A stretch of DNA of 34,405 nt from a virus, in IMG/VR virus record IMGVR_UViG_3300027708_000198, positions 1 to 34,405 of that record, one strand, 5' to 3'. The notes under the pieces were generated by a model. That model was not told where the DNA came from and ran no database searches. It was given only the letters and a program-made list of their open reading frames with translations. Positions 5,708 to 34,405 of the stretch are shown here, one piece after another. Made by a program: the position numbers and the translations under genes. Position 1 is the first letter of the stretch, and every line of letters starts with the position of its first letter.

Positions 5708-5711
5708 CCAG

Positions 5712-6183: not shown

Positions 6184-6189
6184 ATAATA

Positions 6190-6197: not shown

Positions 6198-6203
6198 CAA
6201 AAC

Positions 6204-6230
6204 TTGAATTATTCTTAGTTTTATTATAAA
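6204..6230 (+). promoter_or_regulatory. Possible sigma70-type promoter for the plus-strand block
   Basis: TTGAAT (6204-6209) and TATAAA (6225-6230) with a short 15-nt spacer, upstream of the GTG at 6239 in the divergent gap. The spacing is suboptimal, so the call is tentative. Confidence 0.3.
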
Positions 6231-6238
6231 CTATAGAG

Positions 6239-6526
6239 GTGTTTAAAAAGAAATTAAAAGTACCAAAAGAGAGAGGCGTCTATGCTTTTACTAAACATAG
6301 AAGAGGAGACTTTATTTTATTTCTAGAGAAAAACGGTGAAGGGGTATTTAACTTCATGCAATTGCCTGATCGTTATCCTTTATCACTTACCCAGGAAGAG
6401 TTTACAGAAGGAGTTTTAACTAAGGTACTCGATTTTGTCGAACAGGTACCTGTAGAAGTTTTTGAAGTATCAAAGGCTAATATCAATAACTTAGAGAAAA
6501 CTCTTGACCTGCCGGCTAAGAACTAG
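6239..6526 (+). CDS. Hypothetical protein, 95 aa
   Basis: A 95-residue protein starting at GTG (GTG TTT AAA AAG), the first gene of the plus-strand block. It reads as a small alpha/beta fold (GVYAFTKHRRGDFILFLEKN, then FNFMQLPDRYPLSLTQEEF) with an acidic helical end. No family is recognised. The GTG start is chosen because no in-frame ATG lies near it and the preceding 55 nt hold promoter-like sequence. Confidence 0.7.
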   Translation: MFKKKLKVPKERGVYAFTKHRRGDFILFLEKNGEGVFNFMQLPDRYPLSLTQEEFTEGVLTKVLDFVEQVPVEVFEVSKANINNLEKTLDLPAKN

Positions 6527-10986: not shown

Positions 10987-13900
10987 TTAAGCAGTACCGT
11001 AGTTAGTAAAGCTGCCGGTTGTATCGACGCCTACCTTCCATTTAACTCCATCGGTGTCAGTTAAGATAAAATAACTAGCACTACCGTTTAACCCAGTACA
11101 TACATGTCCTCCACCTGTTGTGTCGATGTTGCCTCCACCATTTGATGTATTAATAGACCCGCCAGAAAGAATACCAGCGAATGTATTAATTGAACCGCCA
11201 TCCCAAGCACCAAAACCACTTGTAACAATATTTCCAGCATTACCATGCCTGTTCAAATCATCTATACCACCACTACCACCTATCATACAAATACTACCGC
11301 CATTTCCTGCTGGAGAATCGTTTGCATCAATATCTGGTGTACCTCCACTTATATTAATAGATCCCGCATTACCTCCAGTGCTGCCTGGTCCACCATTAGA
11401 TCCACCTATAGCAATAAAGGAACCACCAGAACCCGAATTATCTATACCACTACCCTCAATTCTTTCTGGCACTAGTGATCCACCTCTTACAATAAGACAT
11501 CCACCTCTACCAGCTTGATTAGTTAAACCATTAATACAACTACCAGCACTAGTATCAATATAGCCTCCACTTACAGTGTAACAACCTTTTGTAAAAATAT
11601 TACCCCCCCCATCTGACGTATTAATTGAACCACCAGGTCCATGAGAATTTGCATAGGTATAGATATAACCACCTGACCCTGTAGATGATGCACAAGTAAC
11701 AATGTTACCTCCCACTAGACCATCATCGTAACCTCTAGTGTCAATTGAACCGCCATTTCCAGCATAACCACCTGAGGATGTATTAATGTAACCGGCATTA
11801 CCGTTTTCAACACCGTTCATTATAATACACCCGCCGTTACCTCCAATATTACCTCCACCACTACCACTACCTCTCATTATAATACAGCCTCCGGTTCCAC
11901 CAGAGAAGCCATCTCCACCAGGTCCTCCTTGAAGATCAATATAACCTCCTGAACCACCTAATGTATTATAAACAGAACTAAATGTTCCAGCACTTGTATT
12001 AACACAACCACCAATAACACCACAACAACCTCTTGTAATAATATCTCCTCCGCCGTTTGTTGTATTAATAGATCCACCAGAAAGAGTATTAGCAGACGTA
12101 TCAATTGTACCGCCGGCAAAGTAACCACAACCTCTTGTTATAATTGAACCACCAATACCGCCACCAATAGCAACACCGGTACTACCACCTGATGTATCAA
12201 TAAAACCGGCTGGTGTATCATAATTGGCGTTCATCTTGAGATATCCAGCGCTTCCGCCGTGAAATGCTCCATTAGCTTGAATAAATCCAGCACCTCCAGC
12301 GGTTCCATCACCGGCACCGGCACCATTCATTTCTATAAAGCCGCCTCCTGCACCAGGGGCATCGGCACCACCACCACCTCCAACAAGACTGATATAACCT
12401 CCACCACCACCACTATTAACGTCTCCATTACCACCTCGAAGATCTATAGTACCACCAGGTCCACCGAATGTATTATAGTACGAGGAATATGTACCGTTGG
12501 GAAATATTAAACGATTATCAGAACTTAGAATAACTTGGGAGGTTCCATTATCAAGTCTATCAAGTTGACCGAATATTGTACCTTGGGAGGAAAGGTTATT
12601 TACATATGTATAGTTTGCACTGACTGCTGTAATATCAGATCCAAGAATAAAAGTGTTATCAAAATTGTTAGTATCATTAGCAGAACCGGCCGCGATAAAC
12701 GAATAAGCTCCTGATGTTATATTTCTTTCACCACCTCCAATTACAGAATAAGGAGCATGGTTAGAATTTAATTTACCTCCTCCGATGAATGAACCAATAC
12801 CGGAGTACATTGAATACATTTCATTAGAAAGCCCACCAACAATTGTTGAATAAGGACTATCCCCGCCATTATCTATACCGCCTAAGACTGCTGAATATTC
12901 TCCGCCTTCTGCATTATTACCTAGTATCGGTTGAATAGAACCAATGTTACTACCTGTTGTATAAGGATTGTATGTACTTGTACTACCTCCTTGACTAAAG
13001 AGAGTAGCTATATCAACACCACCTGATAAAATAGGACCAAGAGCACTAATTGTACCGCCTATAGTTAATACGCTGTTAGGACCAGTTAATATTCCGTCAT
13101 TACCAAACGTCCAAGGATTAGCAGATAGTGTTTCAAGTACAATATTATTGTCTGTATTATTAAAGTAAATACTATTACCGGTATTATCATATGCGTAGAA
13201 GGCATAAGGAGATAAGGCAATACCGGAATAATAAACATCGTTAGAACTTTCTGATATTATAGTAATTGGATTATCATACTCTGATCTAATAGTGTTATCA
13301 GGAAATGTTACCGAACCATCATCATTAAGAGTTAAAAGGTAGCCGTTAGCTGATAGTGAGTTTGTTGGTGTCCCGCCGCCTCCTCCTGTAAACAAAGTAG
13401 CTATATCTCTTCCTCCGGAAAGATATTTACCAGTAACATTTAAGTTACCATCCATTGTACCTCCCTTAGCGTATTGAACGGCTACCGAACCGCCTCCTCC
13501 TGCTGTCATGCTAACTTGAGCAAAATGTTGACTGAATTTTTCTATCTCCTCTCTAACCTTCTTTTCAATTATTGACTTAATGTCTGTAGGCTTAGAAGGA
13601 GCAGGAGCTCTTCTTGTTTTATTATCTGATGTCTTAAGCTCTTTTACGTAAGCGTTTCTTACTGTTGGTTCTTTAACTTCTTCTACAACTGGCTCTTCTT
13701 TTTTCTCTACCTCAGCTTCAATAACAGGTAACTTACTAGGCTTTTTCTTTGGATAATTTTTTATAAGTTTAGCTGGAACGTAAGATGATCTCCTCTTTTT
13801 AACCTCAACAGGTTTTAAATCTTCATCCTTAATCTTATTAATAAAATCTATAGTAGCTTCCTTTATTTGCTCATCTGTCTGTATCTTTTCATCCTGTTTA

Positions 13901-14148
13901 ATGATATTAGCAACATTACCTAAGAACTTAGCAAATGGAGCATCAGTTGTTTCTTCATCCGGCTTATTAAAATCAGAAGCCTTTGTTTTTTGAAGATTTT
14001 CAACTAATGTTTGAAATACAGCTTGTAATGGATCATCTTCTGATATCTCTATTGGTTCAGATTTAACTTCAACAGGTGTAACTTCTTCAGATATTATAGG
14101 TTCTTCTTCAGAAGCACTTTTATAGAAATTAATAACATCATCGGACAT
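10987..14148 (-). CDS. Large Gly-rich fibre-like virion protein, 1053 aa
   Basis: A 1053-residue protein. Residues 1-215 are charged and mostly helical: acidic repeats, a basic patch (KKRRSSYVPAKL), then Glu/Lys/Pro-rich sequence ending in a helix (IIEKKVREEIEKFSQHFAQV). 'MTAGGGGSVAVQYAKGG.MDG' starts the beta part, with the fibre motif 'YLSGG.DIATLF'. A short run of 'GGGE.N.TSGAYSFI' repeats and the shared module 'SANYTYVNNLSSQG' follow. From about 545 to 1020 come dozens of Gly/Ser/Asn turns of the type 'GGSINTSGGGGNI.TRG'. It ends in the C-terminal module 'DGVKWKVGVDTTG', also seen at the end of the 1618-aa fibre. An adhesin or fibre role is inferred from composition and repeats. Confidence 0.7.
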   Translation of the reverse strand: MSDDVINFYKSASEEEPIISEEVTPVEVKSEPIEISEDDPLQAVFQTLVENLQKTKASDFNKPDEETTDAPFAKFLGNVANIIKQDEKIQTDEQIKEATIDFINKIKDEDLKPVEVKKRRSSYVPAKLIKNYPKKKPSKLPVIEAEVEKKEEPVVEEVKEPTVRNAYVKELKTSDNKTRRAPAPSKPTDIKSIIEKKVREEIEKFSQHFAQVSMTAGGGGSVAVQYAKGGTMDGNLNVTGKYLSGGRDIATLFTGGGGGTPTNSLSANGYLLTLNDDGSVTFPDNTIRSEYDNPITIISESSNDVYYSGIALSPYAFYAYDNTGNSIYFNNTDNNIVLETLSANPWTFGNDGILTGPNSVLTIGGTISALGPILSGGVDIATLFSQGGSTSTYNPYTTGSNIGSIQPILGNNAEGGEYSAVLGGIDNGGDSPYSTIVGGLSNEMYSMYSGIGSFIGGGKLNSNHAPYSVIGGGERNITSGAYSFIAAGSANDTNNFDNTFILGSDITAVSANYTYVNNLSSQGTIFGQLDRLDNGTSQVILSSDNRLIFPNGTYSSYYNTFGGPGGTIDLRGGNGDVNSGGGGGYISLVGGGGGADAPGAGGGFIEMNGAGAGDGTAGGAGFIQANGAFHGGSAGYLKMNANYDTPAGFIDTSGGSTGVAIGGGIGGSIITRGCGYFAGGTIDTSANTLSGGSINTTNGGGDIITRGCCGVIGGCVNTSAGTFSSVYNTLGGSGGYIDLQGGPGGDGFSGGTGGCIIMRGSGSGGGNIGGNGGCIIMNGVENGNAGYINTSSGGYAGNGGSIDTRGYDDGLVGGNIVTCASSTGSGGYIYTYANSHGPGGSINTSDGGGNIFTKGCYTVSGGYIDTSAGSCINGLTNQAGRGGCLIVRGGSLVPERIEGSGIDNSGSGGSFIAIGGSNGGPGSTGGNAGSINISGGTPDIDANDSPAGNGGSICMIGGSGGIDDLNRHGNAGNIVTSGFGAWDGGSINTFAGILSGGSINTSNGGGNIDTTGGGHVCTGLNGSASYFILTDTDGVKWKVGVDTTGSFTNYGTA

Positions 14149-14160
14149 AATTACCTAAAG

Positions 14161-14168
14161 TATTTATA
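14161..14168 (-). promoter_or_regulatory. T4-type late promoter TATAAATA
   Basis: An exact TATAAATA on the minus strand, 12 nt before the ATG of the 1053-aa fibre gene, in the 38-nt gap after the 986-aa fibre gene. Confidence 0.6.
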
Positions 14169-14186
14169 GCATTACAGATAAATACG

Positions 14187-17147
14187 CTAGTTAATTTTAA
14201 AGACTTCTACCTTCGTCCAGTTACCATCAGATGTCCCTGTAACAACTTGAGCTGCATTACTTGAATAACCTTGAAAGTAAAGATAATCAGTGGAACCATT
14301 CATATAAGTTATAGCCGATGTATTTTGCGTTGTATTAACAGATGTATTTATAATAGGTTGCTGTACAATAGATATTGTACTTGCAGTACCGCCTGTAACT
14401 TTCATTACTTGAATATTATTCTGCGCACCAGTTGCTGATACACCTGATTGCCAACTAACTTGATAATATATATGATAATAACCTGGAACCGTAGGAGTAA
14501 TTCTACGAGCGGTTAATCCTGTACCTGCAGTTCTACTGAACCAACTTTTAGGATCGTTTAAAGGATCAAGTGTTAATACAGTATCAGCACTACTAGGCAT
14601 TGTTTGATTAGCCGTTAAAGCTGCCGTTACAACATAATTTGTATTTGATTCAATATTACCAGCTACTGAAAGGTTATTAACATAAGTATAGTTTGCTTTA
14701 GATGCGCTTAACCCGGTACCTAAGATAAAAGTATTAGCAAAACCTTTTGTATCATTAGCAGAACCACCAGCAACAAAAGTATAAGCTGCATCTGCTCTAT
14801 TACATCTACCACCTACAATACTCGAACAGTCTCCAGCCACTGTAATTGTGTTACTCTGCCCTCCAACAATATTTGTTGTAACACCACAAGCAATATTAGT
14901 ATTACCACCACCAATAAAAGAAGTAGATCCAGTACCTGTATTATTAGATATACCACCACCGATAAAAGAGCAGTTGCCGTTAGTACAGTTTGAAGCTCCA
15001 CCAACAGTGGTAGCATTACGACCGACAGCTATATTACTTTGACCACCACCAACAAAAGAACTATAACCGGATGCAGTATTTCCTTGTCCGCCAGCTATAG
15101 TGCCCTTGCAAGATGCGTTGTTTCCCAGACCGCCGGCGATTGTTGCAAAATAGGCTGAAGCTGTATTACCACATCCACCACCAATAATAGAGAATGATGC
15201 AACTGTACCATTTACACTAGTTGTAATACGATTATTAAATCCACCAGCTACAACAGAATAACAACCAGAAGCTGTATTAAGTTTTCCACCACCTATAAAG
15301 TTATCGTAGCCTGTATTATTGATTGCTCTATCATAGACATAGATACTTGTAGCACTGAGACTTGTTCCAGTGCACGTACTATAATCACCATTAATGATAA
15401 TATAGTTTGTACCAGTTGCAGCAATTGTAGCTGTACTAAATGTACCAGCACTTAAAGGACTGGCAGCTGTAGCATAATAAACAGAAACATTGTTAGATGT
15501 AAAAGGATAAGAGAAGCAGTTCTGAATACCTGTACCTATTAAGCAGGTTTGTGAACCATTACCAGAAATTGAAGCAGCTGCAGTAATGTTAAAAGGAGTT
15601 AAACCACCAGTATGGTTTGCAACACCTCCACCGATGATTGAATCTCTTAATGGATTAAAGTTACCAAGACCACCAACGATGATTGAGTATGCACCTGATG
15701 TAGTATTTTTAAACCCTGCTATTGTTGTAGAATATGTACCAGATGCAGTATTAGACTGTCCACCAAGAACAGCTGTTCGATTACCAGAAGCAAGATTTAT
15801 TCCACCACCTGCTATAGCAGCATAAGTGCCTGATGGGGTATTATTATATCCACCACCAACAAACGAATAGTTACCTGAAGCTGTGTGTTGATCACCTCCA
15901 GCAATAGTTGCCCTTGTACCAGATGCACAGTTATTTTTACCACCAGCAACAGTTGTAAAAGGCTGTGTTGCTCTATTTAAACATCCACCAGCAACTACAG
16001 CATAACAACCAGAAGCTGTATTACACTGACCACCAACAGCTACAGCATAAGAACCTGTAGCACAAACTCCAGATCCAGCTCCTACAAATGTTGCATAACC
16101 TGTAGCACATCCACTAAACCCCGCTACAACCGTTGAGTATTTTCCAGACGCTAAATTACATACACCTCCTGCTATATTAGAATAAATACCTGATGCTGTA
16201 TTAATACCTCTTATAGGTTTAATAGAGCTTGTTGTATCTACTAATGTGTAAGGCTGAGAAGATACAGACTGGTATGCTGTATTCCAATTACCGGTTAAAG
16301 TATTAATAGCAGTATTAAGTACTAATTGACTAGTTAGAGTGTTGGTAGTTGTTAAAGGAGTAAGAAGAGCTGTAGCAGCTGCTACGTTAGTTTGATAACT
16401 ATTGAATGTTGTATTTGCTACTAACTGACCTGTAAGAGTATTAGCATCTGTTCTTGTTAGGAGGGATGATGTTAAAGTATTGGTAAGAGTTAAGGGTGTT
16501 AGTAAAGCAGAAGTAGATTGTAAAAGAGTATTGGTAGCATAGGAACTTAAATTATTAAGAAAAGCTGTTGTTTGTGTAGATCCATCTGGGAATGTTATCT
16601 GCCCACTAGATGCTAAAATTAATCTATCAACATTGATGTGCTGGAAATAATCAACAGAACTAGTTGAACCACCACTAGGGGACAGTGCAACCAATGTTGA
16701 GTTTGGTTTATCATATACGCAATTAAATATTGAATAAAAACCACTTAACGAAACTCTAGCTACGTTATTAAATGTTGGAACTATAATTTGGCTGTTTGCT
16801 AAGGTAACAATCGTTCCCGGAGCTGTAGTAATAGCGTTACTTGTAGCATTGGCAGCAATTACTATACTATCTACGAAGTTTGCATTTCCAGCACTTAGAA
16901 CTGGTGCAACAGTAACAACATTCTTAGCAACTACTCTTGCACCAGCGTTATTGATGGTAATAAAGTTGGGGTTACCACCAAATATGGCAACTAGCCCTGC
17001 ACTTCCAGTAATGTTTGTACTAGTAATATCACAGAAACGAATAAGAGTGTAGTCAGCAGTACCACTCTGGGTAAGATTGCCAATATCACAATTAAGAATG
17101 CTTACATTTCCAGCACCAGTAGGTGCAGTACTGGTTAGGTTTGACAT
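14187..17147 (-). CDS. Fibre protein, C-terminal part with C1q/TNF-like tip
   Basis: A 986-residue frame from ATG 17147, but coding continues upstream of that ATG for 53 codons (see 17148-17306), so this is probably the C-terminal half of the 17302-20706 fibre. It starts with a beta-helix-like stretch (SILNCDIGNLTQSGTADYTL), then linker repeats of 'LLTPLTLTNTLTS' type (about 210-285), then about 30 'GGGxxNTASGxYSxVAGG' repeats and the shared 'KANYTYVNNLSVAG' module. Residues 845-986 look like a C1q/TNF-type jelly-roll (TARRITPTVPGYYHIYYQVSW, with a strand-rich end 'GNWTKVEVFKIN'), suitable as a trimeric receptor-binding tip. The fold is inferred, not proven. Confidence 0.7.
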   Translation of the reverse strand: MSNLTSTAPTGAGNVSILNCDIGNLTQSGTADYTLIRFCDITSTNITGSAGLVAIFGGNPNFITINNAGARVVAKNVVTVAPVLSAGNANFVDSIVIAANATSNAITTAPGTIVTLANSQIIVPTFNNVARVSLSGFYSIFNCVYDKPNSTLVALSPSGGSTSSVDYFQHINVDRLILASSGQITFPDGSTQTTAFLNNLSSYATNTLLQSTSALLTPLTLTNTLTSSLLTRTDANTLTGQLVANTTFNSYQTNVAAATALLTPLTTTNTLTSQLVLNTAINTLTGNWNTAYQSVSSQPYTLVDTTSSIKPIRGINTASGIYSNIAGGVCNLASGKYSTVVAGFSGCATGYATFVGAGSGVCATGSYAVAVGGQCNTASGCYAVVAGGCLNRATQPFTTVAGGKNNCASGTRATIAGGDQHTASGNYSFVGGGYNNTPSGTYAAIAGGGINLASGNRTAVLGGQSNTASGTYSTTIAGFKNTTSGAYSIIVGGLGNFNPLRDSIIGGGVANHTGGLTPFNITAAASISGNGSQTCLIGTGIQNCFSYPFTSNNVSVYYATAASPLSAGTFSTATIAATGTNYIIINGDYSTCTGTSLSATSIYVYDRAINNTGYDNFIGGGKLNTASGCYSVVAGGFNNRITTSVNGTVASFSIIGGGCGNTASAYFATIAGGLGNNASCKGTIAGGQGNTASGYSSFVGGGQSNIAVGRNATTVGGASNCTNGNCSFIGGGISNNTGTGSTSFIGGGNTNIACGVTTNIVGGQSNTITVAGDCSSIVGGRCNRADAAYTFVAGGSANDTKGFANTFILGTGLSASKANYTYVNNLSVAGNIESNTNYVVTAALTANQTMPSSADTVLTLDPLNDPKSWFSRTAGTGLTARRITPTVPGYYHIYYQVSWQSGVSATGAQNNIQVMKVTGGTASTISIVQQPIINTSVNTTQNTSAITYMNGSTDYLYFQGYSSNAAQVVTGTSDGNWTKVEVFKIN
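16276..16460. repeat. 185-nt duplicated fibre-linker segment, copy 1
   Basis: This stretch aligns without gaps to 17438-17622 over 185 nt, with clearly high identity by eye. Both encode 'LLTRTDANTLTGQLV.NTTF' and 'INTLTGNWNTAY' linker repeats. The two copies lie in the two halves of the split fibre. Confidence 0.8.
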
Positions 17148-17306
17148 TTTTAACCCTTCTATAGTACAACCAGTACTTGTGCTTACAGTTCCTGAAATTA
17201 ATACGTCTCCACCAATAAGTCCGGGGCCAACTAATACTGTATATTGAGTTGTTATTGATGGATTTTCAGTATAAACTCCTGGGTGGATAATTACTACTTT
17301 TCTAAG
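17148..17306 (-). other. Coding stretch bridging two fibre frames (frame change)
   Basis: On the minus strand, 53 sense codons in the frame of the downstream fibre gene precede its ATG, beginning LRKVVIIHPGVYTENPSI and continuing 'YTVLVGPGLIGGDVLISG'. The 'IHPGVYTENP' motif is typical of right-handed beta-helix modules. It continues the end of the upstream fibre ('PVASITKALT', stop TAG at 17302-17304). The frame is closed upstream by TGA at 17307-17309, so a frame change must fall within a few bases around the ACT codon at 17305-17307. Confidence 0.7.
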
Positions 17307-20300
17307 TCAACGCTTTAGTAATAGAAGCAACTGGTTTAAGCAAGTCACCATTACCAGTGGTGTCGTTTCCATCTATTTGGCTAACGTGTATTTCACTGTC
17401 ATAACCAGCAAGATTTAATGCTGATGTAGAAGCATAAGCTGTATTCCAATTACCGGTTAAGGTATTAATAGCTGTATTGAGAACTAACTGACTAGTAAGA
17501 GTTCTAGTTAAAGTTAAAGGTGTCAGAAGTGCTGTAGCAGCTGCAACATTTGTTTGATAACTATTAAACGTAGTATTAGTTACTAATTGCCCAGTTAAAG
17601 TATTAGCATCTGTTCTTGTTAGTAAAGTAGCAGATATGGTATTAAGATCTGTAGTCTTAACTAAAAGACCAGTTAAAGTATTTGTAGTTGTTGTAAGTGT
17701 TAATAAACTACTAAGAGTATTAGTCGTAGTTAAAGGTGTTAAAAGACCAGTTAAAGTATTTGTAGTTGTATTAGTAGTAAACTTTGTTCCAGTTATTTTC
17801 GTATCTGCTAACGAAGCAATCCATGAAGGGTCAGAGTAGGATTGATTTGTATATACACCATTAGTAACTGTATCTGCATTACCTGTTACATTACCAATTA
17901 AATTAGCACTTAGAGAATCAATACGTATATTTTTATCTGTCCAATCAATATTAGCTGCCGATAAAGGTTCGGTAGTAAGACCGGAGAATAATGTCCAAAT
18001 ACCTGGTACCTGTCCTCCAGCTCTTCTCACTAATCCGGTATGGTTATAGCCAAGAGGAGCTTGAGAAAAATGAGCCACTAAACCTATATCTAAAACATTA
18101 GCTCCGTAATTATTATCATTAAAGTAAATAAGGTTATCACCAACAACTAAATTTTTAGCATCAATATAAGTAGCTGAACCTGCTATAGTTAAATTACCAA
18201 TAATAGAAACATCTCCTGGAAATATAGCACTGTTAGGTAAGCTTAATGTAACCGTTGAACCAGATTTAGAAGCATCAATCTGATTAGGTGTACCACTAAC
18301 TGCAGTTATAAAAGAACTTAAATCATTAGTTAATACAAGAGTTCCGCTAGCGTCAGGTAAATTAATATTTCTATTTTCCGTAGCAGTTCCACTTAAGGTT
18401 GTTCTTTGAGTATCATAACCAAATTGAATGTAACCTGAACCTGTTGTATTTATTGAACCACCACCGGCTGATGTATTGATATAACCGCCAGCTGCTCCTC
18501 CACCAACACCTAATATAGCTGCTCCTCCTGATGTGTTAATATAGCCGCCTGGTGAAGCGTCATAATTATTACTTCCAGTACCAGCTGATGTATTAATGTA
18601 TCCACCCGAAGCACTATAATTTCCATCTGAAACTGCACCACTTGTGTTTATATAACCACCATTTGAAGCCCCACTTGCACCAGAAGGAGATTCATTTTCA
18701 ATCACTTTCCCGCCACTTGTATTAATATAACCACCATCTCCACCATTAAGAGTATTACTAGCTGATGTATTAATATTTCCACCACAATTATAAAGACAAG
18801 CCGATGTATTAATAGAACCAGGTTGGGTCCAACCGTTACTCCCTCTCATTATAATACAACCACCATTACCACCACCATCTGGCCAACCTCTTAAATCTAT
18901 ACAACCACCAGAACCACCGTTATCATCAGTTGCGTAACCACCGCTGATATTAATCCAACCAGCAGAACCACCCGAAGCATGTCCTTCTGTATGGCCTCCT
19001 ATAGCAATAAAACACCCACCGTTACCGACTGGATAACCATCTGCAGAATAAGATCCTGAACTTGTATCAATATAACCGCCAATTGCACCATTATAACCTC
19101 TTGTAATAATATTACCACCTCCATTTGATGTATCAATAGATCCGCCAGAAAGCCCGGGCACACCAAACATATCACCAGCACCAGATGTATTAATATTTCC
19201 TGCACTTCCTCCGTTAGTGTTGTGACCACAACCACCTGTCATATATATACATCCACCATTGCCACCGATACCCGGGTCACCGCCAGGTCCACCGATTAGA
19301 TTAATAAAACCACCGGGCCCCCCTAGTGCATAATTTGAATTTGTCCCGTTAGGGAAATGTAATAGATTATCAGAGCTTAAAATTACTTGAACCGTTCCGT
19401 TGTCGAGTCTGTCACTAGGTGGAATATTTACACCTGTAAAAGCTGTAGTTTGTGTCGAACCATTACCGAAAGTAACACTAACAGTATTAATAGTACCTTG
19501 GGAGGAGAGATTATTAACGTACGTATAGTTTGCACTGACTGCAGTTATATTAGAACCTATGATAAATGAATCGTTAGCTGATACATCTACTATATTATTG
19601 TACCCTCCTAAAATACCAGAATTGTTAGCTTTAACAATATTACTACAACCACCACCAATTGTTGTATTTGATGCACAAGAGTTGTTAAAAATACCACCAC
19701 CAATTGCTCCATATGCATTAGAGCAAGTAGAATTAGCATTAATATGATTCTCCCAGCCTCCAGCAATTACAGAACTACCACAATCTGAAATAAGATTGTC
19801 CCCGCCACCACCGATAACTGATGCCCAAGATACGTGACAGATACAATTACTATACCCTCCAGATATAGTTGAACCACACCCTTCAGTTCCTGATAATTGT
19901 GTAATATAATTTTGACAACCGCCAGCTACTATAGAATAATCGCCTGCAGATATATTATGATAACCTCCACCAATTACAGCATAACTACCAGAAGCAGTAT
20001 TATTACCCAATACAGGTCGAATATTAGTACCACTTAAAATATATGCTTGGGTTGAAAGTTTTGAAAAATTAGTATCAAGACTTGTTGTAGTTTGATAAGC
20101 TGTATTCCAATCAGCACTTGTATTATGTACTAAACTATTAACACTATTGTCCCCGCTTTGACCGAACAATGTAATTATATCAACACCACTAGATAGATAT
20201 TGCCCGAATGTGTTTATACTACCATTTGTATAAAGATCGTTTGGTACGTATAAATTATTATCTGTACTTAAAATAACTTGAACAGTACCATTATCAAGTC

Positions 20301-20706
20301 TATCAGTAGCACCTTGTGTAATACCAATATAGTTGGCTGCAGATATTGTTTGTACAGTTAAAAATCCGTTTAAAGCACTTAACGAAGTTGTATTAGCATT
20401 AAGATATAAATTATCGGAAGATGTATTTTGATACGCAGTATTCCAATTACCGCTATTAGCAGCTAGAAACGCATTTGTTATATCTAAACCTGCAGATAAT
20501 ACTGTTATAGAAACATTTGAAGAAGCTGTACTTACACTTAACGCAGTTAAAAAAGAATAGAGATCAGTTTGTGCACTAAGATAGCCGTATATAGTTCCCC
20601 AAATGTTACCTGTAGCAACAACATTAATATTATAGTGATCAGTTGTTGTATCAACTGATAATACAATATTTTCACTAGTTGTATTAACTATAATATTCTC
20701 GCTCAT
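17302..20706 (-). CDS. Large fibre-like virion protein, 1134 aa (N-terminal part)
   Basis: A 1134-residue protein starting MSENIIVNTTSENIVLSV, with a strand-rich N-terminus (GNIWGTIYGYLSAQTDLYSF), two 'DRLDNGTVQVILS.DN' modules, Gly/Asn repeats (GGGYHNISAGDYSIVAGG type, about 235-370), the shared 'SANYTYVNNLSSQG', and a long 'GGYINTSGG' region (about 440-760). It then has a beta-strand part with 'DASGTLVLTNDLSSFI' and 'FNDNNYGANVLDIGLVAHF', followed by 'LLTPLTTTNTL' linker repeats. It ends 'DGNDTTGNGDLLKPVASITK' ALT, the usual lead into a beta-helix, and then stops at a frame change into the next fibre gene. Its ATG overlaps the stop of the 113-aa gene (TAATG), so translation is coupled. Confidence 0.75.
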   Translation of the reverse strand: MSENIIVNTTSENIVLSVDTTTDHYNINVVATGNIWGTIYGYLSAQTDLYSFLTALSVSTASSNVSITVLSAGLDITNAFLAANSGNWNTAYQNTSSDNLYLNANTTSLSALNGFLTVQTISAANYIGITQGATDRLDNGTVQVILSTDNNLYVPNDLYTNGSINTFGQYLSSGVDIITLFGQSGDNSVNSLVHNTSADWNTAYQTTTSLDTNFSKLSTQAYILSGTNIRPVLGNNTASGSYAVIGGGYHNISAGDYSIVAGGCQNYITQLSGTEGCGSTISGGYSNCICHVSWASVIGGGGDNLISDCGSSVIAGGWENHINANSTCSNAYGAIGGGIFNNSCASNTTIGGGCSNIVKANNSGILGGYNNIVDVSANDSFIIGSNITAVSANYTYVNNLSSQGTINTVSVTFGNGSTQTTAFTGVNIPPSDRLDNGTVQVILSSDNLLHFPNGTNSNYALGGPGGFINLIGGPGGDPGIGGNGGCIYMTGGCGHNTNGGSAGNINTSGAGDMFGVPGLSGGSIDTSNGGGNIITRGYNGAIGGYIDTSSGSYSADGYPVGNGGCFIAIGGHTEGHASGGSAGWINISGGYATDDNGGSGGCIDLRGWPDGGGNGGCIIMRGSNGWTQPGSINTSACLYNCGGNINTSASNTLNGGDGGYINTSGGKVIENESPSGASGASNGGYINTSGAVSDGNYSASGGYINTSAGTGSNNYDASPGGYINTSGGAAILGVGGGAAGGYINTSAGGGSINTTGSGYIQFGYDTQRTTLSGTATENRNINLPDASGTLVLTNDLSSFITAVSGTPNQIDASKSGSTVTLSLPNSAIFPGDVSIIGNLTIAGSATYIDAKNLVVGDNLIYFNDNNYGANVLDIGLVAHFSQAPLGYNHTGLVRRAGGQVPGIWTLFSGLTTEPLSAANIDWTDKNIRIDSLSANLIGNVTGNADTVTNGVYTNQSYSDPSWIASLADTKITGTKFTTNTTTNTLTGLLTPLTTTNTLSSLLTLTTTTNTLTGLLVKTTDLNTISATLLTRTDANTLTGQLVTNTTFNSYQTNVAAATALLTPLTLTRTLTSQLVLNTAINTLTGNWNTAYASTSALNLAGYDSEIHVSQIDGNDTTGNGDLLKPVASITKALT
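17438..17622. repeat. 185-nt duplicated fibre-linker segment, copy 2
   Basis: Gap-free match to 16276-16460 (see there). It lies about 1.2 kb away in direct orientation and could support recombination between fibre halves. Confidence 0.8.
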
Positions 20707-25739: not shown

Positions 25740-27647
25740 TTATCGTACTGTCGACGTTGGTGTGATAGTAGGAGTTGGTGTTAAAGTTTTGGTAGGAGTT
25801 CTAGTTGTACGAGGGGTTCTAGTAGGGGTTTTTGTCGGTGTCGGTGTTTTTGTTTGTGTCGGTGTTTTTGTTTGCTCCGGTGTAATAGTGGGAGTTAGTG
25901 TTGACGTGTTTGTAGGTGTTCTAGTTGTACGGGGTGTTCTAGTAGGGGTTTTTGTAGGCGTCGATGTTTTTGTTTGTGTCGGTGTTGAAGTATGTGTTGG
26001 TGTAGTAGTTTTTGTTTGTGTTGGAGTCGGTGTATTAGTTCTAGTAGAGGTTTTAGTTACGTAAGGGGTTTTAGTAGGAGTCTTTGTTGGTGTCGGTGTT
26101 TTTGTTTGTGTCGGTGTTGAAGTATGTGTCGGTGTATTAGTTCTAGTAGAGGTTTTAGTTACGTAAGGAGTTTTAGTAGGGGTGGTAGTAGGAGTTAAAG
26201 TACTAGTATTTGTTGGAGTTAAAGTATTTGTAAGGGTCGGGGTTCTTGTTATACGAGGTGTTTCAGTAGGAGTCGGTGTACTAGTTTGCTCTGGGGTGGT
26301 AGTAGGAGTTAAAGTACTAGTATTTGTTGGAGTTAAAGTATTTGTTGGAGTTAAAGTGTTTGTAAGGGTCGGAGTTCTTGTTATACGAGGTGTTCCAGTA
26401 GGAGTCGGTGTTGAGGAGTTTGTGGGGGTCGGAGTCTTTGTGGGTGTCGGAGTCTTTGTGGGTGTCGGAGTAGGAGTTGCTGGTGGTAAAGAAGGAACAA
26501 AGATATTAACTTTAGGGCTTCCTAAACCGGTTACAAGATCGTACCCTGTTCCAGCAGGAAGTCCGTTATTACCAGATGTTATATCGTTAAAAACATTTGC
26601 CCAGTTTTTATTTGCTACATCGTATATATATTCATTTATTGTTTTAACATTTTTAGTACTATAGCCTGCACTAAATAACCTTGCAACAATACCAGCCCAT
26701 ACAGGACAACCAAGACTAGTTCCATAGATAGATTGCCACCCCGCTGCATTTGTAATTGGGTTTGTAAAATATATCCAAACACCAGTACCTCCAATAATAG
26801 AGACATCAGGTACACATCTCATAGTTTCATTAGTCCATCCTGTTTGATATGCTGGTAAGCTATTTATAGTACTTACTCCTCCCCCACTACCTGACCAGGC
26901 TGTTTCACTATACGGTCCTGGATCCCCGGCAAAATAAGTATCATCACCGCCATATAAATTTGTACCACCTACGCTCAACACATACGGTGATGAGGCCGGG
27001 TAAAATACTTCTGTACCCCAGTCTCCGGAACCACCAATATAAGCTGCTTTTAAATTATGAAATACATCATCAAAACCACCAGAATAAAAATAATCTACCT
27101 CTTCAGCACCAAGGCTCATAGAAACAACATCCGCACTTAATGTTTCAACAGCATACTGTATACAATCTTTTATTTTATCAAAACCATTATAAGGAGGTAC
27201 CACTAATACAATATTGGCTGATGGTGCTATAGAGTGTGTGTATTGTACGTCTAAAGTAGTTTCCATTGCCCACCCTGCAGCTGTATTTGCTACTTCACCT
27301 GTTAAGTTATTAAAACTAGGTTGACCAAAAGGATAATAAACTGAAACATGGGTTGTAGGTATATCCATATGGGAACAAAAATAATCTAAGTCACTTTGTA
27401 CATTTGGATTACCCCAAGCAGCAATAACTGCTATTGTCTGACCTTTTCCTTTACTTTTTACTTGATTAATTCCGTAATAATCGTAAAGATTCCAAGGTGT
27501 TAAGGCCCCGTAGGGTGCCTGTATTGTTGGAATTGGTGCCGGAAGCGGGTCATTATCCCTTGCAGAACCCATACTACCATCTTCTTGAGGATCATCTGGA
27601 CCGTATACCCATTTAATAAGCGGTTTTGGAATTGGTACCTGTTCCAT
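25740..27647 (-). CDS. Sedolisin-type (S53) peptidase with Thr/Pro repeat tail
   Basis: A 635-residue protein. The mature-type start '[13 protein letters not shown]' (49-61) opens a sedolisin (S53) serine-carboxyl peptidase domain up to about 385. The catalytic set is visible: Glu129 and Asp133 in 'METTLDVQY' (E-x3-D spacing as in sedolisin), Asp209 in 'GGSGDWG' (oxyanion), and Ser311 in '[12 protein letters not shown]'. The calcium site is seen in '[10 protein letters not shown]' (Asp355) and '[14 protein letters not shown]' (Asp370). The usual about 170-200-residue inhibitory prodomain is absent; only about 48 Pro/Asp-rich residues precede. Residues 390-635 are a Thr/Pro tandem repeat. It starts 6 nt after the 1618-aa fibre gene stop, so it is in the fibre operon. 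Virion location and substrate are inferred. Confidence 0.85.
25743..26477 (-). repeat. Thr/Pro-coding tandem repeat (minisatellite)
   Basis: About 735 nt encoding 'TPTPTKTPT' type repeats with longer units that recur in the DNA. For example, the segments around 25800 and 25920 share the unit reading [13 protein letters not shown], and those near 26040 and 26140 share [17 protein letters not shown]. The tail is rigid and hydroxyl-rich, and copy number may vary by slippage. Confidence 0.85.
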
Positions 27648-27653
27648 GGCTTA

Positions 27654-30600
27654 TTAAGCTAGAGCTGTTTCAACACCACCAGTTACATTTACTGTTAATG
27701 TCCAACGAATACCAGTAGGGTCTTGAAGCACTATGCTTGAAGCAGGTTTTGTTAATTCTAGATTACTTCCAACATAAACTCCGCTTAAGAAATTTAATGA
27801 TAATGTACTAGCACCATTTCCGTTATCATCATTACCATCTGATATAACTAATTCATTACCAGTACCAATAATTTCAGATGATTGAACAGAACCGTAAATT
27901 GATCCAGTTGCCGATAAGTCATTAACAAAAGTAGTATTAGGTCTATCAGATACAATATTTGATCCTAAGGCAAAACTATTAGAACCACTTAATGAATTAT
28001 ACACCCCACCAAGTATGCTAGAACAGTTACCAACAGCATGATTATTAATACCGTTAAGTACAGTAGAATAGCGTCCTGAAACTGAATTATTAACACCATT
28101 AACTACAGTAGAGTTATAAGCAGAAGCAGTATTATTATAACCGTTAATTACTACAGTGTAACTACTAGAAGCTGTATTAACAGTACCACCAACAATCGAA
28201 CTATAACAAGAGGCAATATTACAATAACCACCTAATATTATAGAATAATTACCTGAAGCAGTATTACCGTAACCACCGCTAATTGTTGAAGCGTATCCGC
28301 TTGCTTTATTACCACCATCATTAGGATAATTTATATTATAAAAACCGCCGCCGGCAACTACAGAACGATCTCCAGAAGCACAATTATTATAACCTCCACT
28401 TATTGTTGAGTAGTAGCCTGAAGCTGTATTACATCTACCTCCTGCTATTGTAACTGCATAATAACCAGATGAGGTGTTACAATACCCACCGCCAATAGTA
28501 TTGTTATAGGCGTATGCATTCGAAATAGTATTACAATATCCACCAGAGATTGTATTATTAGCACTTTCTCCAGGTGTTGAATTTGTACAATTACAAAAAC
28601 CACCGGCAATCGTATCACAACGTCCACTAGCTTTATTGCATCTACCACCGCCAATTGTTGAATGTCTTCCAAGGGCAGCGTGATGTCCACCTCCGGCGAT
28701 TACAGAATACTGACCGATGGCACAGTTATGACCTCCACCACCGACAGTAGCCTTACAAGCTATTGCACAGTTTGATTCACCACCTACTACTGTTGTATAA
28801 ATTTCAGTAGCACAATTACTATTACCACCACCAATAAATGAAAGAGGACCACATGTACAATTATACTGACCACCTACAACTGATGAATTGTAACAGAGAG
28901 CTCTATTATTAGTACCGCTACCTACAAAAGAGCAGTCACCTTCGGCAGTGTTATTATAACCTCCTGTTGTTGAAGAATATTCTCCAGTAGCAAAATTGTT
29001 TCCAGAAACTGTTACAACACTTGTACCACCACCATTACCATATCTAAACGGCATGCCATCAATTGTACCAATAGATATAACATTGGTTAAATTAGTTAAA
29101 CCGGCACCACTGCCGTAATAGATTCCGGTAGTACAAACATCACCAAATGTCTTTGTATTATTAAAGAAAGTAAAACCATCAGCATCTGCTGTAATTTCAG
29201 ATCCAATAATATGAGAATTGTTTCTACTGTTAATTGTATTACCAGAGCCTCCAAGAATAGAACTGCAGAAAGAATCTCCAATAATACAATTATAAGCTCC
29301 TCCGGTAATTACCGATGCTTTTCCATCAATTACGTTCTCACAACCGGCACCAATAAAGGAAAATCCACAAGCTGTTGTTATAATATTTTCATTAACAACG
29401 TTACAGTAACCACCGGCAACGGTATCGTACTGATTACCTACACAGTTACAACTACCACCACCTATGGTAGAATAGTATCCAGAAGCCGTACCACTTAAAC
29501 CACCGGAAATTGTTGAACCGTATCCATAAGCAAAATTACAAAAACCACCAGCGATAGTTACGTTCGTATCGTAAGCGCCATTGCAGCAACCACCACCGAT
29601 GACAGCGTTAATACCAGAAACAAAATTACAACTACCGCCTGCTATTACTCCAGCATTACTAGTAACTGTATTATGAAAACCACCGGAAACAGTACCAGCA
29701 CAATTAATAACATTACAGTTACGATAACCACCGCTGACAGTGTTTAAAGCGCCAACATTTAAATTACCTGCACCGCCGGCAACTGTATTAGCTCCAATTG
29801 GACCACCATCGTAATAACCTGATGTTGTATTTCCGGAACCGCCACTAACTGTGTCAGCATATTCTAAAGCAACGTTACAACTACCACCACCTACTGTAGT
29901 ATATTCAGTACGATAGGTACTAAAAGTATTAAACGGTTTATAATGTATACTGCTATTATTAACACAGCTATGCCAGGCATCAGGTTCTAAATTATTTGTA
30001 TTGTAATATGTTATACGTCCTTCATAATCATCATAAAGATTCCAGCACTTTTTATTATCAGCAGGAATAATACAGGCCTGATTGTCAGAATTACAAAAAC
30101 ACCAACCGGTACAAGTATCATTCCATTGCCCGTAAAAGCATCCATTTGATGATTCTATTCCACCGCTTAAAGTAATTGTTTGAATAACTCCAGATACGTT
30201 ACAACGTCCACCTGCTACTATTGAATACCATCCTGTTGCTGTATTACATGTACCACCGGCTACATTAGAATGGTAACCAAGAGCTCTATTACAATAACCA
30301 CCGGAGACAGTCGAGTTACTACCAGAGGCAATATTCTTTGAACCACCTCCTACTGTTGGGTTCCAACAGCCGGTAGCTTCATTACAGTGACCGCCAGCAA
30401 TTGTAGCACGACCATATCGGGCGTTAGTATAATTGCATCTACCACCGCCAATTACCGACAAACAACTATCAGCACAATTACGATAACCACCACCGATAAA
30501 AGAGGCATTTCCACCCGGGGTATATGTATCGTTAGTATAACTACCAATAAAATTAGCCGGTTCATCAGAGCTAACTTTATACCATCTAGTACTATTTAAA

Positions 30601-32510
30601 TTAACTAGATCAGTATTAAAATAAAGATCATCTTCTGTATCTTTACCAGTTAATAACCAGCGACTACCATTCCAGTAAATAACAGGAAGGTCTCCGTTAT
30701 TTGTAAAAGTAGTATAACCGCCTTCTTCTCTTGTCATTACTGCGCTTAATTCAGCAACATAAACTTCATTTATAAAATATTCTTCTTGTTTAGTACAATT
30801 ACGGCAACCACCACTAATTACAGAAGCACTACCACGGGCACAATTTTCATATCCGCCACCTATAGTTGAACAGTAACCGGAAGCTGAATTACATACACCT
30901 CCACCGACAGTAGAATAACAACGCCCAGCACAGTTACCATAACCACCGCTTACTGTTGATCCATAATACCCTGACGTTGTATTACATGCACCTCCGCTGA
31001 TAGTATCGAATCCATAGTAGCCTGAAGCCGTATTATCACAACCACCTCCAATTGTTGCAACACGTCCAGAAGCAATATTATAATAACCACCACTGACCGT
31101 ACTATGTGCCCCGATATAAGTATTTACTGGTGTACAAACATTATTAGCTGACGTAATTGGTACGTGAGTATTAGAGAAAAGAGAGTACCAATTATCAGGG
31201 TATAAGTTATTGTCGTTAGCATATGTAACATCGTTGTCAATATTGGAACAATAACGCCATTGATTAGTTGGTTCACAAGTTGTAGCATCACTGTACCGAA
31301 AGATATATCCGTCAGATCCGTTAAACGGGGAATAATCACCTGCCTCAGGGTACGGCCTAACATATGTACCAGATATATTTGTACCACCGGTAATATTAAT
31401 TTCACAAATAAAGGATTCTCTACCAGCAGTATTATTACTTCCTCCCCCTATTGTAGTATTACAGCCATAAGCTTTATTATAATAGCCACCGGCTATACTG
31501 GAATAAGCTCCAGAAGCAGAATTATTGTAACCACCACCAACAGTAGAACCATAACAAGTAGCAGTGTTACAATAGCCACCGGAAATAGTAGAAATATACT
31601 CAGAAGCTGTATTACAGTAACCACCAGCTACATTGGAATAACAATTAGAAGCTGTATTACATTTACCACCAGCTACATTGGAATAACAATTAGAAGCGGT
31701 ATTGCTACCTGATAAAGGTCGAATAGAACCAGCACTAAGACCTTGAACATATAATCCTCCGGAACCACCGCTTGTTGCTACACCTGTTAAATTAGAACCA
31801 TCTCCGTAATATGTTCCGTGTATAGAACCTTGAGAGCTTAAATTGTTAACGTAAGTATAATTTGCACTTAATGCAGTGATATTAGATCCTAAGATATAAG
31901 TGTTGTCTTGATTATTAGTATCATTAGCAGATCCGCTTGCTATAAAAGAAAACATTCCGGAAGCTGTATTACTAGTACCGTTAAGAATTACTGAAAAATT
32001 ACCGGTTGCAACATTAGGGTTACCAATATTATTAAACTGGGTACATTGCTGATATATATTACTGTTAGTATTATTAATAAGACAACTTGTATTAATAATA
32101 ACAGAAACATCGCTGTAACCACTACCAATTAAACTATAATCTCCTGCTGCATTATTAGAAAATCCGGTATTTAAATCTTCAATAATATAGCAATAAAAAA
32201 CACCGTTTTGGTAAGATGGTTGTTCACATTGCCCGATATCTGAATTATTAGTACCTGCGTAATTACAACTACTGAGAATATTAGTACAACTAGTAGGTGA
32301 TCCGTTTCCGTTTATAACAGTAGCATAACAACCTGAAGCAGTATTATATGTACCTCCCAGTACAGTTGAAAACTTACCATATGCATTATTATTTCCTAGT
32401 AAAGGTTGTATAGAAGATACAGATTCTACATTTGTATAAGATTCATGTAATGCTGCACGAATTCCTGATAGGGTAGTAAGAGAAGCTGTTGTTAGTTCAA
32501 TAGAAGGCAT
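27654..32510 (-). CDS. Giant repetitive fibre/adhesin protein, 1618 aa
   Basis: A 1618-residue protein, largely repeats of about 16-18 residues of the form 'GGGYCNTASGYYSTISGG', resembling left-handed beta-roll head repeats of trimeric adhesins (YadA-type). The N-terminus 'MPSIELTTASLTTLSGIRAAL' is followed by 'IQPLLGNNNAYGKFSTVLGG'. At about 195-260 is the shared 'SANYTYVNNLSSQG' module. Three related insert domains interrupt the repeats (about 364-467, 575-665, 775-868), plus a shorter Cys-containing loop at about 72-118. The end resembles that of the 1053-aa fibre ('PTGIRWTLTVNVTGG'). It is followed 6 nt later by the S53 peptidase gene. A tail fibre or adhesin role is inferred. Confidence 0.75.
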   Translation of the reverse strand: MPSIELTTASLTTLSGIRAALHESYTNVESVSSIQPLLGNNNAYGKFSTVLGGTYNTASGCYATVINGNGSPTSCTNILSSCNYAGTNNSDIGQCEQPSYQNGVFYCYIIEDLNTGFSNNAAGDYSLIGSGYSDVSVIINTSCLINNTNSNIYQQCTQFNNIGNPNVATGNFSVILNGTSNTASGMFSFIASGSANDTNNQDNTYILGSNITALSANYTYVNNLSSQGSIHGTYYGDGSNLTGVATSGGSGGLYVQGLSAGSIRPLSGSNTASNCYSNVAGGKCNTASNCYSNVAGGYCNTASEYISTISGGYCNTATCYGSTVGGGYNNSASGAYSSIAGGYYNKAYGCNTTIGGGSNNTAGRESFICEINITGGTNISGTYVRPYPEAGDYSPFNGSDGYIFRYSDATTCEPTNQWRYCSNIDNDVTYANDNNLYPDNWYSLFSNTHVPITSANNVCTPVNTYIGAHSTVSGGYYNIASGRVATIGGGCDNTASGYYGFDTISGGACNTTSGYYGSTVSGGYGNCAGRCYSTVGGGVCNSASGYCSTIGGGYENCARGSASVISGGCRNCTKQEEYFINEVYVAELSAVMTREEGGYTTFTNNGDLPVIYWNGSRWLLTGKDTEDDLYFNTDLVNLNSTRWYKVSSDEPANFIGSYTNDTYTPGGNASFIGGGYRNCADSCLSVIGGGRCNYTNARYGRATIAGGHCNEATGCWNPTVGGGSKNIASGSNSTVSGGYCNRALGYHSNVAGGTCNTATGWYSIVAGGRCNVSGVIQTITLSGGIESSNGCFYGQWNDTCTGWCFCNSDNQACIIPADNKKCWNLYDDYEGRITYYNTNNLEPDAWHSCVNNSSIHYKPFNTFSTYRTEYTTVGGGSCNVALEYADTVSGGSGNTTSGYYDGGPIGANTVAGGAGNLNVGALNTVSGGYRNCNVINCAGTVSGGFHNTVTSNAGVIAGGSCNFVSGINAVIGGGCCNGAYDTNVTIAGGFCNFAYGYGSTISGGLSGTASGYYSTIGGGSCNCVGNQYDTVAGGYCNVVNENIITTACGFSFIGAGCENVIDGKASVITGGAYNCIIGDSFCSSILGGSGNTINSRNNSHIIGSEITADADGFTFFNNTKTFGDVCTTGIYYGSGAGLTNLTNVISIGTIDGMPFRYGNGGGTSVVTVSGNNFATGEYSSTTGGYNNTAEGDCSFVGSGTNNRALCYNSSVVGGQYNCTCGPLSFIGGGNSNCATEIYTTVVGGESNCAIACKATVGGGGHNCAIGQYSVIAGGGHHAALGRHSTIGGGRCNKASGRCDTIAGGFCNCTNSTPGESANNTISGGYCNTISNAYAYNNTIGGGYCNTSSGYYAVTIAGGRCNTASGYYSTISGGYNNCASGDRSVVAGGGFYNINYPNDGGNKASGYASTISGGYGNTASGNYSIILGGYCNIASCYSSIVGGTVNTASSSYTVVINGYNNTASAYNSTVVNGVNNSVSGRYSTVLNGINNHAVGNCSSILGGVYNSLSGSNSFALGSNIVSDRPNTTFVNDLSATGSIYGSVQSSEIIGTGNELVISDGNDDNGNGASTLSLNFLSGVYVGSNLELTKPASSIVLQDPTGIRWTLTVNVTGGVETALA

Positions 32511-32518: not shown

Positions 32519-32526
32519 TATTTATG
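32519..32526 (-). promoter_or_regulatory. Late-promoter-like octamer CATAAATA
   Basis: CATAAATA on the minus strand, 8 nt before the ATG of the 1618-aa fibre gene and overlapping the stop of the gp15-like gene. Confidence 0.45.
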
Positions 32527-33751
32527 GATTATAGGTTAGATCTTGACCGAAGAACATAATATCATCTCCATAATATAAGATAGCTCCCTTCGGTATACGC
32601 GATACACCAGTATATATATCAACACCTGAAAGGAATGGTAATGTATAAGGTTTCCATGTTTTATACTCCGGCATAGAAGGAAGGTAAGGATTATATGTTT
32701 CTTTAATTGAGTATTGTTTTAACGATCCATAACCGGCGTGATTTTGAAGTATAATATCAAACTTACCACCGTTTAAAGCCGGTGGCATTGTAAATGTTAA
32801 CAGGTTATTATTATTAGAAAGGTACGTATCAGCAGGTAATTCAAAACCAGAAAAACCAGGATAGAGAGCCGATAGACGAGGTACGCTGGAAAACGGATTA
32901 AAGAACGTTGTATTAAAATTAGTATCCCCAGATAGATAAACATTAGTTATATTAAAGAACGATTTACCGTAAACTTTAAATGTATTACTTGCCGATGTAA
33001 GTGTATAGAACGGATTAACGTAATTAGGTTGCGGTTGACCGGAAAGAGTGATACGTTCTGTTGTGTTCGGGTAATTATTAGCTAACTCATCTAAAGAGTA
33101 TTGAGTAGTAATATCTGGTAGTACTGAATAATCTGTAACAATAGTAAAGATTTCTCCATCTGCTTTTGGAAAGGCTTTAAACAACCAGCCTTGAAATGTA
33201 AATGTTGTATCTCCTTGAACCCGGGCAACCTGGGTGGCCTGAAGATCAGTTGGATACACTGTTGTAACACTACCGGACCAAATTACTTTACTTCTGATTT
33301 CGTAATCAGGTACTTCAGGTATACGCCAAGATATTTCAATATACGGATCAAAATAAGGAAGAAAATTAGTTATGATTTGATCGTAATCACTCTGGTATCT
33401 TGCCAATATCGACATATTGATAGTTAAATCAATAGGTATAGGTTGACGTAAAACGTTTGAGAATCTAGGATCAGTACTAGCGTAATGGGATCCAAGAATT
33501 TTATTAAAAACTCTATTTACATCTCTTGTTATACCACCATTAGATACTGTTATAACAGGTAGTTGTATGTTTTGAGCTTTATCTAATAGGTCTAAAAGTA
33601 CACGCTGTTTAGGGGCGTATACAAATCTTGCCTTAATACGGTCTTGGACTTCTTTATTTTTATTATAACGCTTAACAATTACATCGTCCATCGCTGCGAT
33701 GAACATAGTAAACATGTTTTGTAGCTCAAATTGAAAAGTATAGTTACGCAT
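32522..33751 (-). CDS. Tail sheath stabiliser and completion protein (T4 gp15-like)
   Basis: A 409-residue protein whose first about 215 residues match T4 gp15, the tail terminator that caps and stabilises the sheath and joins tail to head. Shared features are 'MFTMFIAAMDDVIVKRYN' near the start, 'RFVYAPKQRVLLDLLDKAQN' followed by 'LPVITV', then 'IDLTINMSILARYQSDYDQI' with 'ITNFLPYFDPYIEISWRIPE', and 'DTTFTFQGWLFK'. T4 gp15 is 272 aa; here a C-terminal extension of about 180 residues forms a beta-rich, Ig-like part ('YGKSFFNITNVYLSGD', 'TFTMPPALNGGKFDIILQNH'). It lies directly upstream of the giant fibre gene. Confidence 0.8.
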   Translation of the reverse strand: MRNYTFQFELQNMFTMFIAAMDDVIVKRYNKNKEVQDRIKARFVYAPKQRVLLDLLDKAQNIQLPVITVSNGGITRDVNRVFNKILGSHYASTDPRFSNVLRQPIPIDLTINMSILARYQSDYDQIITNFLPYFDPYIEISWRIPEVPDYEIRSKVIWSGSVTTVYPTDLQATQVARVQGDTTFTFQGWLFKAFPKADGEIFTIVTDYSVLPDITTQYSLDELANNYPNTTERITLSGQPQPNYVNPFYTLTSASNTFKVYGKSFFNITNVYLSGDTNFNTTFFNPFSSVPRLSALYPGFSGFELPADTYLSNNNNLLTFTMPPALNGGKFDIILQNHAGYGSLKQYSIKETYNPYLPSMPEYKTWKPYTLPFLSGVDIYTGVSRIPKGAILYYGDDIMFFGQDLTYNP

Positions 33752-33760: not shown

Positions 33761-34135
33761 TTATTTAAGTTTAGTTTCAGGATCTGCTTCTACTTCTCCG
33801 GCAATTAATATATATTTTAATACCTCCATAGATACTTCTGCTGTTTCTTTATCCATAATACCCTCATCTACAGCATCAGCTATTACATCAAAATTCTTAT
33901 TAACATAATCTTTAATGAACCTTAAAAGCTCTTGAGGTCTTGTATTCATAAAAGCCTCAGCCTCTGCTAATGCTATTTTTCTATAGTTAGGATCCGTTAC
34001 GTTTATTTCTCCATTAAGAAGCTTTGCTTCAAACTCTTCAAAATAACGTTCCTGTCGTTCGTCATAAAAAGCTCTCACGTCTACTTTAAAAGCATCAAAC
34101 ATCCGTTCCCGGATTATTTCAGATGAGAGTTTCAT
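33761..34135 (-). CDS. Hypothetical helical protein, 124 aa
   Basis: Start at ATG 34135 (MKLSSEIIRERMFDAFKVDV). An in-frame upstream start at 34186 would run over the tmRNA promoter and adds an unrelated hydrophobic stretch, so it is rejected. The product is acidic and all-helical ('YDERQERYFEEFEAKLLNGE', 'KIALAEAEAFMNTRPQELLR', 'DKETAEVSMEVLKYILIAGE'). No family is recognised. It lies 9 nt upstream of the gp15-like gene and diverges from the tmRNA gene; a minor structural or assembly role is possible. Confidence 0.7.
   Translation of the reverse strand: MKLSSEIIRERMFDAFKVDVRAFYDERQERYFEEFEAKLLNGEINVTDPNYRKIALAEAEAFMNTRPQELLRFIKDYVNKNFDVIADAVDEGIMDKETAEVSMEVLKYILIAGEVEADPETKLK
33762..33769 (-). 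promoter_or_regulatory. Late-promoter-like octamer CTTAAATA
   Basis: CTTAAATA on the minus strand, 10 nt before the ATG of the gp15-like gene, overlapping the stop codon of the gene before it. Confidence 0.4.
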
Positions 34136-34145
34136 AACATATAAG

Positions 34146-34153
34146 TATTTAAG
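34146..34153 (-). promoter_or_regulatory. Late-promoter-like octamer CTTAAATA
   Basis: CTTAAATA on the minus strand, 10 nt before ATG 34135; identical to the octamer at 33762-33769. Confidence 0.4.
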
Positions 34154-34160
34154 AAAAAAG

Positions 34161-34189
34161 TTGACAAATACTACTAAAGGTGCCATAAT
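34161..34189 (+). promoter_or_regulatory. Sigma70-type promoter of the tmRNA gene
   Basis: TTGACA (34161-34166, perfect -35), a 17-nt spacer, and CATAAT (34184-34189). The predicted transcript start is about 34196, leaving a leader of about 32 nt with a small GAGC/GCTC hairpin (34197-34209), to be removed by RNase P at 34228. It is unlike the NNTAAATA sites of virion genes, so host sigma70 RNA polymerase is likely to transcribe the tmRNA. Confidence 0.75.
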
Positions 34190-34227: not shown

Positions 34228-34405
34228 GGGGGTGTACTGGTTTCGACTTATAATCGAACTCTGTACTGCACGCAGTAGTTAATCTGTGGCTACTTTAAAA
34301 CGGATTAAAAAACTAAACGCAGAAGATAATACTGATGCGCTCTTAGCTGAAGCTGAATACATCTTCAACAATGCTGCCGAGTTTCTCGGTGGTGTTGAGG
34401 AAGAG
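34228..34405 (+). ncRNA. ssrA: tmRNA (ssrA), 5' half, one-piece type, truncated by window end
   Basis: tmRNA rescues stalled ribosomes by acting first as tRNA-Ala and then as a short mRNA that tags the protein for degradation. The 5' end GGGGGUGUACUGGUUUCGAC (34228-34247) matches the conserved tRNA-like 5' end of one-piece tmRNAs. An H-type pseudoknot (PK1, 34274-34307) lies at nt 47-80, followed 11 nt later by a GCA resume codon (34319-34321, nt 92). In E. coli PK1 is nt 49-79 and the resume codon nt 90. The tag starts AEDNTDALLAEA and, unlike ordinary tags (about 8-35 codons), is still open after 29 codons at the window edge with no ALAA-type end visible. PK2-PK4 and the 3' tRNA-like half lie beyond the window. 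Confidence 0.9.
34274..34307 (+). other. tmRNA pseudoknot PK1
   Basis: Two interleaved stems: AGTAG (34274-34278) pairs with CTACT (34290-34294), and TAATCTG (34280-34286) pairs with CGGATTA (34301-34307, one U-G pair). The interleaving is a true H-type pseudoknot, positioned as PK1 upstream of the resume codon. Confidence 0.85.

Follow-up and report, generated by a model that had tools for sequence, protein, structure and literature searches.

The window, the whole stretch of DNA analysed here, is the complete 34,405-base virus record IMGVR_UViG_3300027708_000198 from IMG/VR. It belongs to a phage, with genes for a gp3-like tail sheath stabilizer and a portal. At its right-hand end, cmscan against Rfam identified a tmRNA (RF00023) with a score of 48.5 bits, for a cut-off of 47 bits, and an E-value of 2.3e-16; the alignment covers model positions 1-186 of 374 and carries a 3' cut-off flag. 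The record stops inside the gene, and since the 34,405 bases end there, we attribute the missing 3' half to the contig end and not to the gene itself. ARAGORN made no tmRNA call on the window, as expected for a tmRNA that lacks its 3' half. We also considered the contig break as the mark of an insertion; this was not supported, and an assembly fork at sequence common to a co-occurring strain would suffice. A conserved 5' tRNA-like strand and the pseudoknot PK1 lie ahead of the resume codon, as in one-piece tmRNAs. The gene is not circularly permuted: its 5' acceptor strand precedes both PK1 and the tag. Relatives of the gene match the standard RF00023 model end to end. The features are collected in Table 1.

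Table 1. Positions of the tmRNA features and neighbouring genes in the window, and of the interruptions of the tmRNA gene in related loci.
Feature	Locus	Position	Strand	Basis or remark
5' part of tmRNA gene, ended by contig edge	Window	34228..34405	+	RF00023, 48.5 bits
Acceptor stem, 5' strand (GGGGGUG)	Window	34228..34234	+	RF00023 alignment; 5' end kept in 19 homologues
Sigma-70-like promoter for tmRNA, TTGACA-17-CATAAT	Window	34161..34189	+	11/12 consensus matches
PK1 stem 1, 5' strand (partner 34290-34294)	Window	34274..34278	+	Covariation
PK1 stem 2, 5' strand (partner 34301-34308)	Window	34279..34286	+	Covariation
PK1 stem 1, 3' strand	Window	34290..34294	+	Covariation
PK1 stem 2, 3' strand	Window	34301..34308	+	Covariation
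Tag frame: 29 codons starting with the GCA resume codon, no stop before contig end	Window	34319..34405	+	Translation
Conserved 141-aa protein, divergent neighbour of tmRNA	Window	33761..34186	-	tblastn: L002, L003, L004, L005, L023, beside gp3
gp3-like tail sheath stabilizer	Window	32522..33751	-	PHROG 227; same order in relatives
HNH ORF insert, PK1 loop 3	L004	4832-5459	-	tmRNA interrupted there
HNH ORF insert, PK1 loop 3	L034	about 5140-5731		tmRNA interrupted there
tmRNA gene with PK1 insert and T-loop group I intron	L034	5071-6318		1248 nt
T-loop group I intron	L022	3301-3525		RF00028
T-loop group I intron	L029	2277-2501		RF00028
T-loop group I intron	L037	3896-4100		RF00028
T-loop group I intron	L034	about 6096-6301		Sequence likeness to the same insert

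Upstream of the gene, consensus hits like the sigma-70-like promoter are about equally frequent in shuffled sequence; its CATAAT element and the leader are conserved in two related phage loci, L002 and L003. In these loci and in the nearest relative, L023, a complete tmRNA occupies the equivalent position and is divergent from the genes for the 141-aa protein and gp3. L023 belongs to the same lineage as the window, with the same neighbours and identities of 70% for gp3 and 78% for the portal. A peptide-pattern search with the 141-aa protein gave no relatives, whereas tblastn did locate it in the same loci. At the nucleotide level, viral contigs contained no match to a 32-base pattern based on the window 5' end, and none was obtained with blastn of the window and L003 tmRNAs against annotated phages or with megablast using 20 kb of the window.

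PK1 (34274-34308) is supported by covariation. Across 19 phage homologues, 98.4% of alignment cells are paired, and 8 of the 13 pairs show changes on both sides. None of 500 shuffles did as well on either measure, and the signal is lost when the pairing partners are shifted. The sequence-only reading had recognized a tmRNA at the window end from interleaved PK1 stems and a GCA resume codon, and had proposed a fold with an ssrA covariance model. That model matched, with its 3' end flagged as cut off as described above, and since the PK1 pairs covary in the homologues, the direct reading of both elements was right.

The tag frame opened by this codon reads AEDNTDALLAEAEYIFNNAAEFLGGVEEE and runs through 87 bases to position 34405 with no stop codon, just as the sequence-only reading had it. 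It had further called the tag unusually long and suggested that a degron might be missing. A scan of viral contigs for the conserved tmRNA 5' end yielded 27 stretches, among them L023, which holds a complete tmRNA including the 3' tRNA-like half (RF00023, 109.7 bits); its 3' end reads CTCCAGT and so does not fully encode CCA. Such a 3' half (T-arm and acceptor strand) is also present in L002, L003 and other relatives. Over the 87 nt of the window tag, L023 is identical at 86 positions and in all 29 residues, and it then continues with YLLAA and TAA to a total of 34 aa. By homology, the window tag would thus lack its stop and the last 5 or so codons. Every tag in 21 related phage loci is 31-35 aa long, with -AA at the end of almost all of them, mostly as LAA, LMAA, LLAA, AIAA or similar; L026 ends in CLA. 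Published tags range from 8 to 35 aa (PMC8012679), with 10 residues the commonest length (PMC11915505). The window tag is long, as claimed, yet by comparison with its relatives it is ordinary in kind: 34 aa falls within the known range, and the ending in the near relative is degron-like.

These observations favour a one-piece tmRNA encoded by the phage, about 440-450 nt long and represented in the contig by its first 178 nt, which would perform ordinary rescue with a tag of ~34 residues; we give this reading a probability of about 0.93. The missing CCA end would be charged with alanine, and host SmpB would carry the tmRNA into stalled ribosomes. Translation would resume at GCA 34319 and add ~34 residues, namely AEDNTDALLAEAEYIFNNAAEFLGGVEEE and then probably YLLAA, before the stop codon releases the ribosome. 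The -LAA end would then direct the tagged protein to proteolysis by the host, for example by ClpXP. We infer the last codons and 3' half of the window copy, the host SmpB, the host phylum and the proteolysis. As to the role, our guess is that, in infected cells, the molecule recycles ribosomes stalled on broken mRNA.

The length of the tag might instead be a mere by-product of RNA structure in an otherwise normal tmRNA, the extra residues having no function. Such a view fits with a tag region that must also fold within the tmRNA, and with tag groups that differ much in sequence. We consider it unlikely on account of the substitution pattern. Among five close homologues, the variable columns at codon phases 1/2/3 number 9/6/17 in the tag, compared to 32/37/31 for the RNA that follows the stop codon, where the three-base periodicity is lost. 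Median dN is also lower than dS in three tag groups (0.14 against 0.63, 0.21 against 1.29 and 0.09 against 0.42), in comparisons whose sequence pairs are not independent. Together, the low dN and the contrast in codon phases with the post-stop RNA indicate that the tag is maintained as a peptide; on this comparative evidence, its codons are evolving as protein across the phage family. Selection at the protein level suggests that the extra ~24 residues have some role.

The 3' half of the window tmRNA would lie past the edge of the contig; it might be broken, or carry an intron in the T-loop like those of L022, L029, L034 and L037, whereas the L023 tmRNA has no T-loop intron. A truly endless tag, with neither stop nor degron, would give rescued proteins another fate or prevent release. 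The 87 bases seen without a stop are in keeping with it, but L023, with 29 of 29 residues the same, stops five codons on after YLLAA, and all 21 loci stop at 31-35 aa, making this very improbable. A stop shortly past the edge with an ALAA-like ending, the case that the sequence-only reading had said would leave merely a long ordinary tag, is therefore found by homology in this relative, and the suspected lack of a degron is not supported. We conclude that the endless tag was a false alarm: it is an effect of truncation, because the contig stops and L023 shows the stop. Decay into a remnant with no working 3' half would equally explain a contig without that half; with the 5' end, PK1 and tag codons conserved, the contig ending here and close relatives complete, we regard it as highly improbable. 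The proposed fusion to a protein gene running from the GTG at 34286 through the tag is practically untenable: no stop interrupts this frame in the window, but the GTG sits inside the covarying PK1, and its reading is not conserved because relatives such as L002 and L003, which have a complete tRNA-like 3' half, carry a stop codon in frame immediately ahead of the resume codon.

Within the one-piece tmRNA of the window, the segments differ in their affinities. PK1 is 94% identical to that of L002 and 68% to that of L023, while for the tag the identity is 99% with L023 and 53% with L002. The window tmRNA is thus mosaic over 34274-34405, with a PK1 like L002 and L003 and a tag like L023. From these identities, tmRNA segments appear to recombine among related phages, and since the molecule is mosaic, the last codons of the window need not equal those of L023.

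A search of the genomes of 84,980 species of bacteria and archaea with a 22-base 5' pattern gave 101 stretches. The genomes bearing it are mostly titled Verrucomicrobia, Spartobacteria or Chlamydiae, with a few others. Because the pattern was derived from phage sequence, it points to the host phylum but does not prove it; the host phylum would most likely be Verrucomicrobiota. The phage copies have this 22-nt 5' end in common with the one-piece tmRNA (RF00023) of Verrucomicrobiota and Chlamydiota, and in many related phage copies the T-arm and acceptor strand GGGTTCGACTCCCCTCGCCTCC equal those of several Spartobacteria. The genes differ in size: the phage genes are about 430-450 nt with tags of 31-35 aa, whereas the verrucomicrobial genes are ~350 nt with tags of mostly 9-10 aa (ADYEDLALAA, ANEELALAA). 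The comparison of tags with related phages and candidate hosts that had been proposed from the sequence thus sets the phage tags apart. They would be about three times longer than the tag of the probable host, and the wider family consists of phage tmRNAs, probably from verrucomicrobial phages, whose long tags are under selection at the protein level. A search of ten related phage contigs turned up no SmpB, and for this reason we assume that the host provides it. In one verrucomicrobial contig (L108, 6512-6649), the tmRNA 5' end occurs twice, 116 bases apart, apparently through a partial tandem duplication preceding an intact gene. Phage-borne ssrA is also known from the mycobacteriophage Bxz1 group, Bacillus phage G and methylophage Melnitz (PMC4131195, PMC9004378); the Melnitz tmRNA differs in being permuted and two-piece, with a riboswitch. 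Among the titles and abstracts listed, we found no description of a verrucomicrobial phage tmRNA, or of ssrA homing endonucleases outside introns.

The family holds two unrelated kinds of tmRNA interruption. Four relatives carry group I introns in the T-loop. This is the site known from a 2025 survey of 97,179 tmRNA sequences, which reported introns in the T-loop only and itself noted that it could have missed others (PMC11915505); the present copies sit in uncultivated phage contigs. The second kind, in loop 3 of PK1, is a form of the tmRNA gene that is absent from that survey. In L004 and L034, inserts of ~600 bp carry an HNH ORF of the Endonuclease VII type (PF02945), the two proteins being 64% identical, and both loci keep an intact 35-codon tag. 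An Rfam search of the L004 insert at E up to 1 gave no match and no intron family. The insert ends pair over 21-22 bp at -31.9 and -36.0 kcal/mol, whereas among over 1,700 control pairs drawn from inside each insert the best reaches -16.1 kcal/mol. Base by base, the arms of L004 and L034 share 20 pairs, of which five are changed on both sides and none is broken. A hairpin just before the HNH ORF contains TATAAATA, identical in both loci, which we take to resemble the late promoters found at homing endonuclease genes in T4.

An assembly error is unlikely, because two contigs share the architecture and the covarying ends. With both its PK1 insert and its intron, the L034 gene exceeds the maximum of 1152 bp in the 2025 survey (PMC11915505). 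The L004 gene has unusual letters in the D-loop and T-loop, and for this reason its function is less sure than that of L034. Eleven more distant copies of the HNH gene occur elsewhere, and ARAGORN called no tRNA or tmRNA beside them. We tentatively suggest, as one possibility among others, that the insert behaves as intervening sequences in rRNA do: the tmRNA would tolerate this mobile element because its terminal helix allows PK1 to form, and RNase III might perhaps cut that helix to give a two-piece tmRNA of a new kind, split at PK1. Like the intervening sequences of Coxiella 23S rRNA (PMC4990558), it would be a selfish element with an ORF, lodged in a structured RNA, with the difference that here the interrupted RNA is a tmRNA and the ORF encodes an HNH endonuclease.

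Elsewhere in the window, 10987-20706 and 27654-32510 (minus strand) encode very large repetitive proteins of 986-1618 aa with many GGxxNxASGxYS-type repeats, and 25740-27647 encodes a 635-aa protein with a long repetitive Pro/Thr-rich tail.
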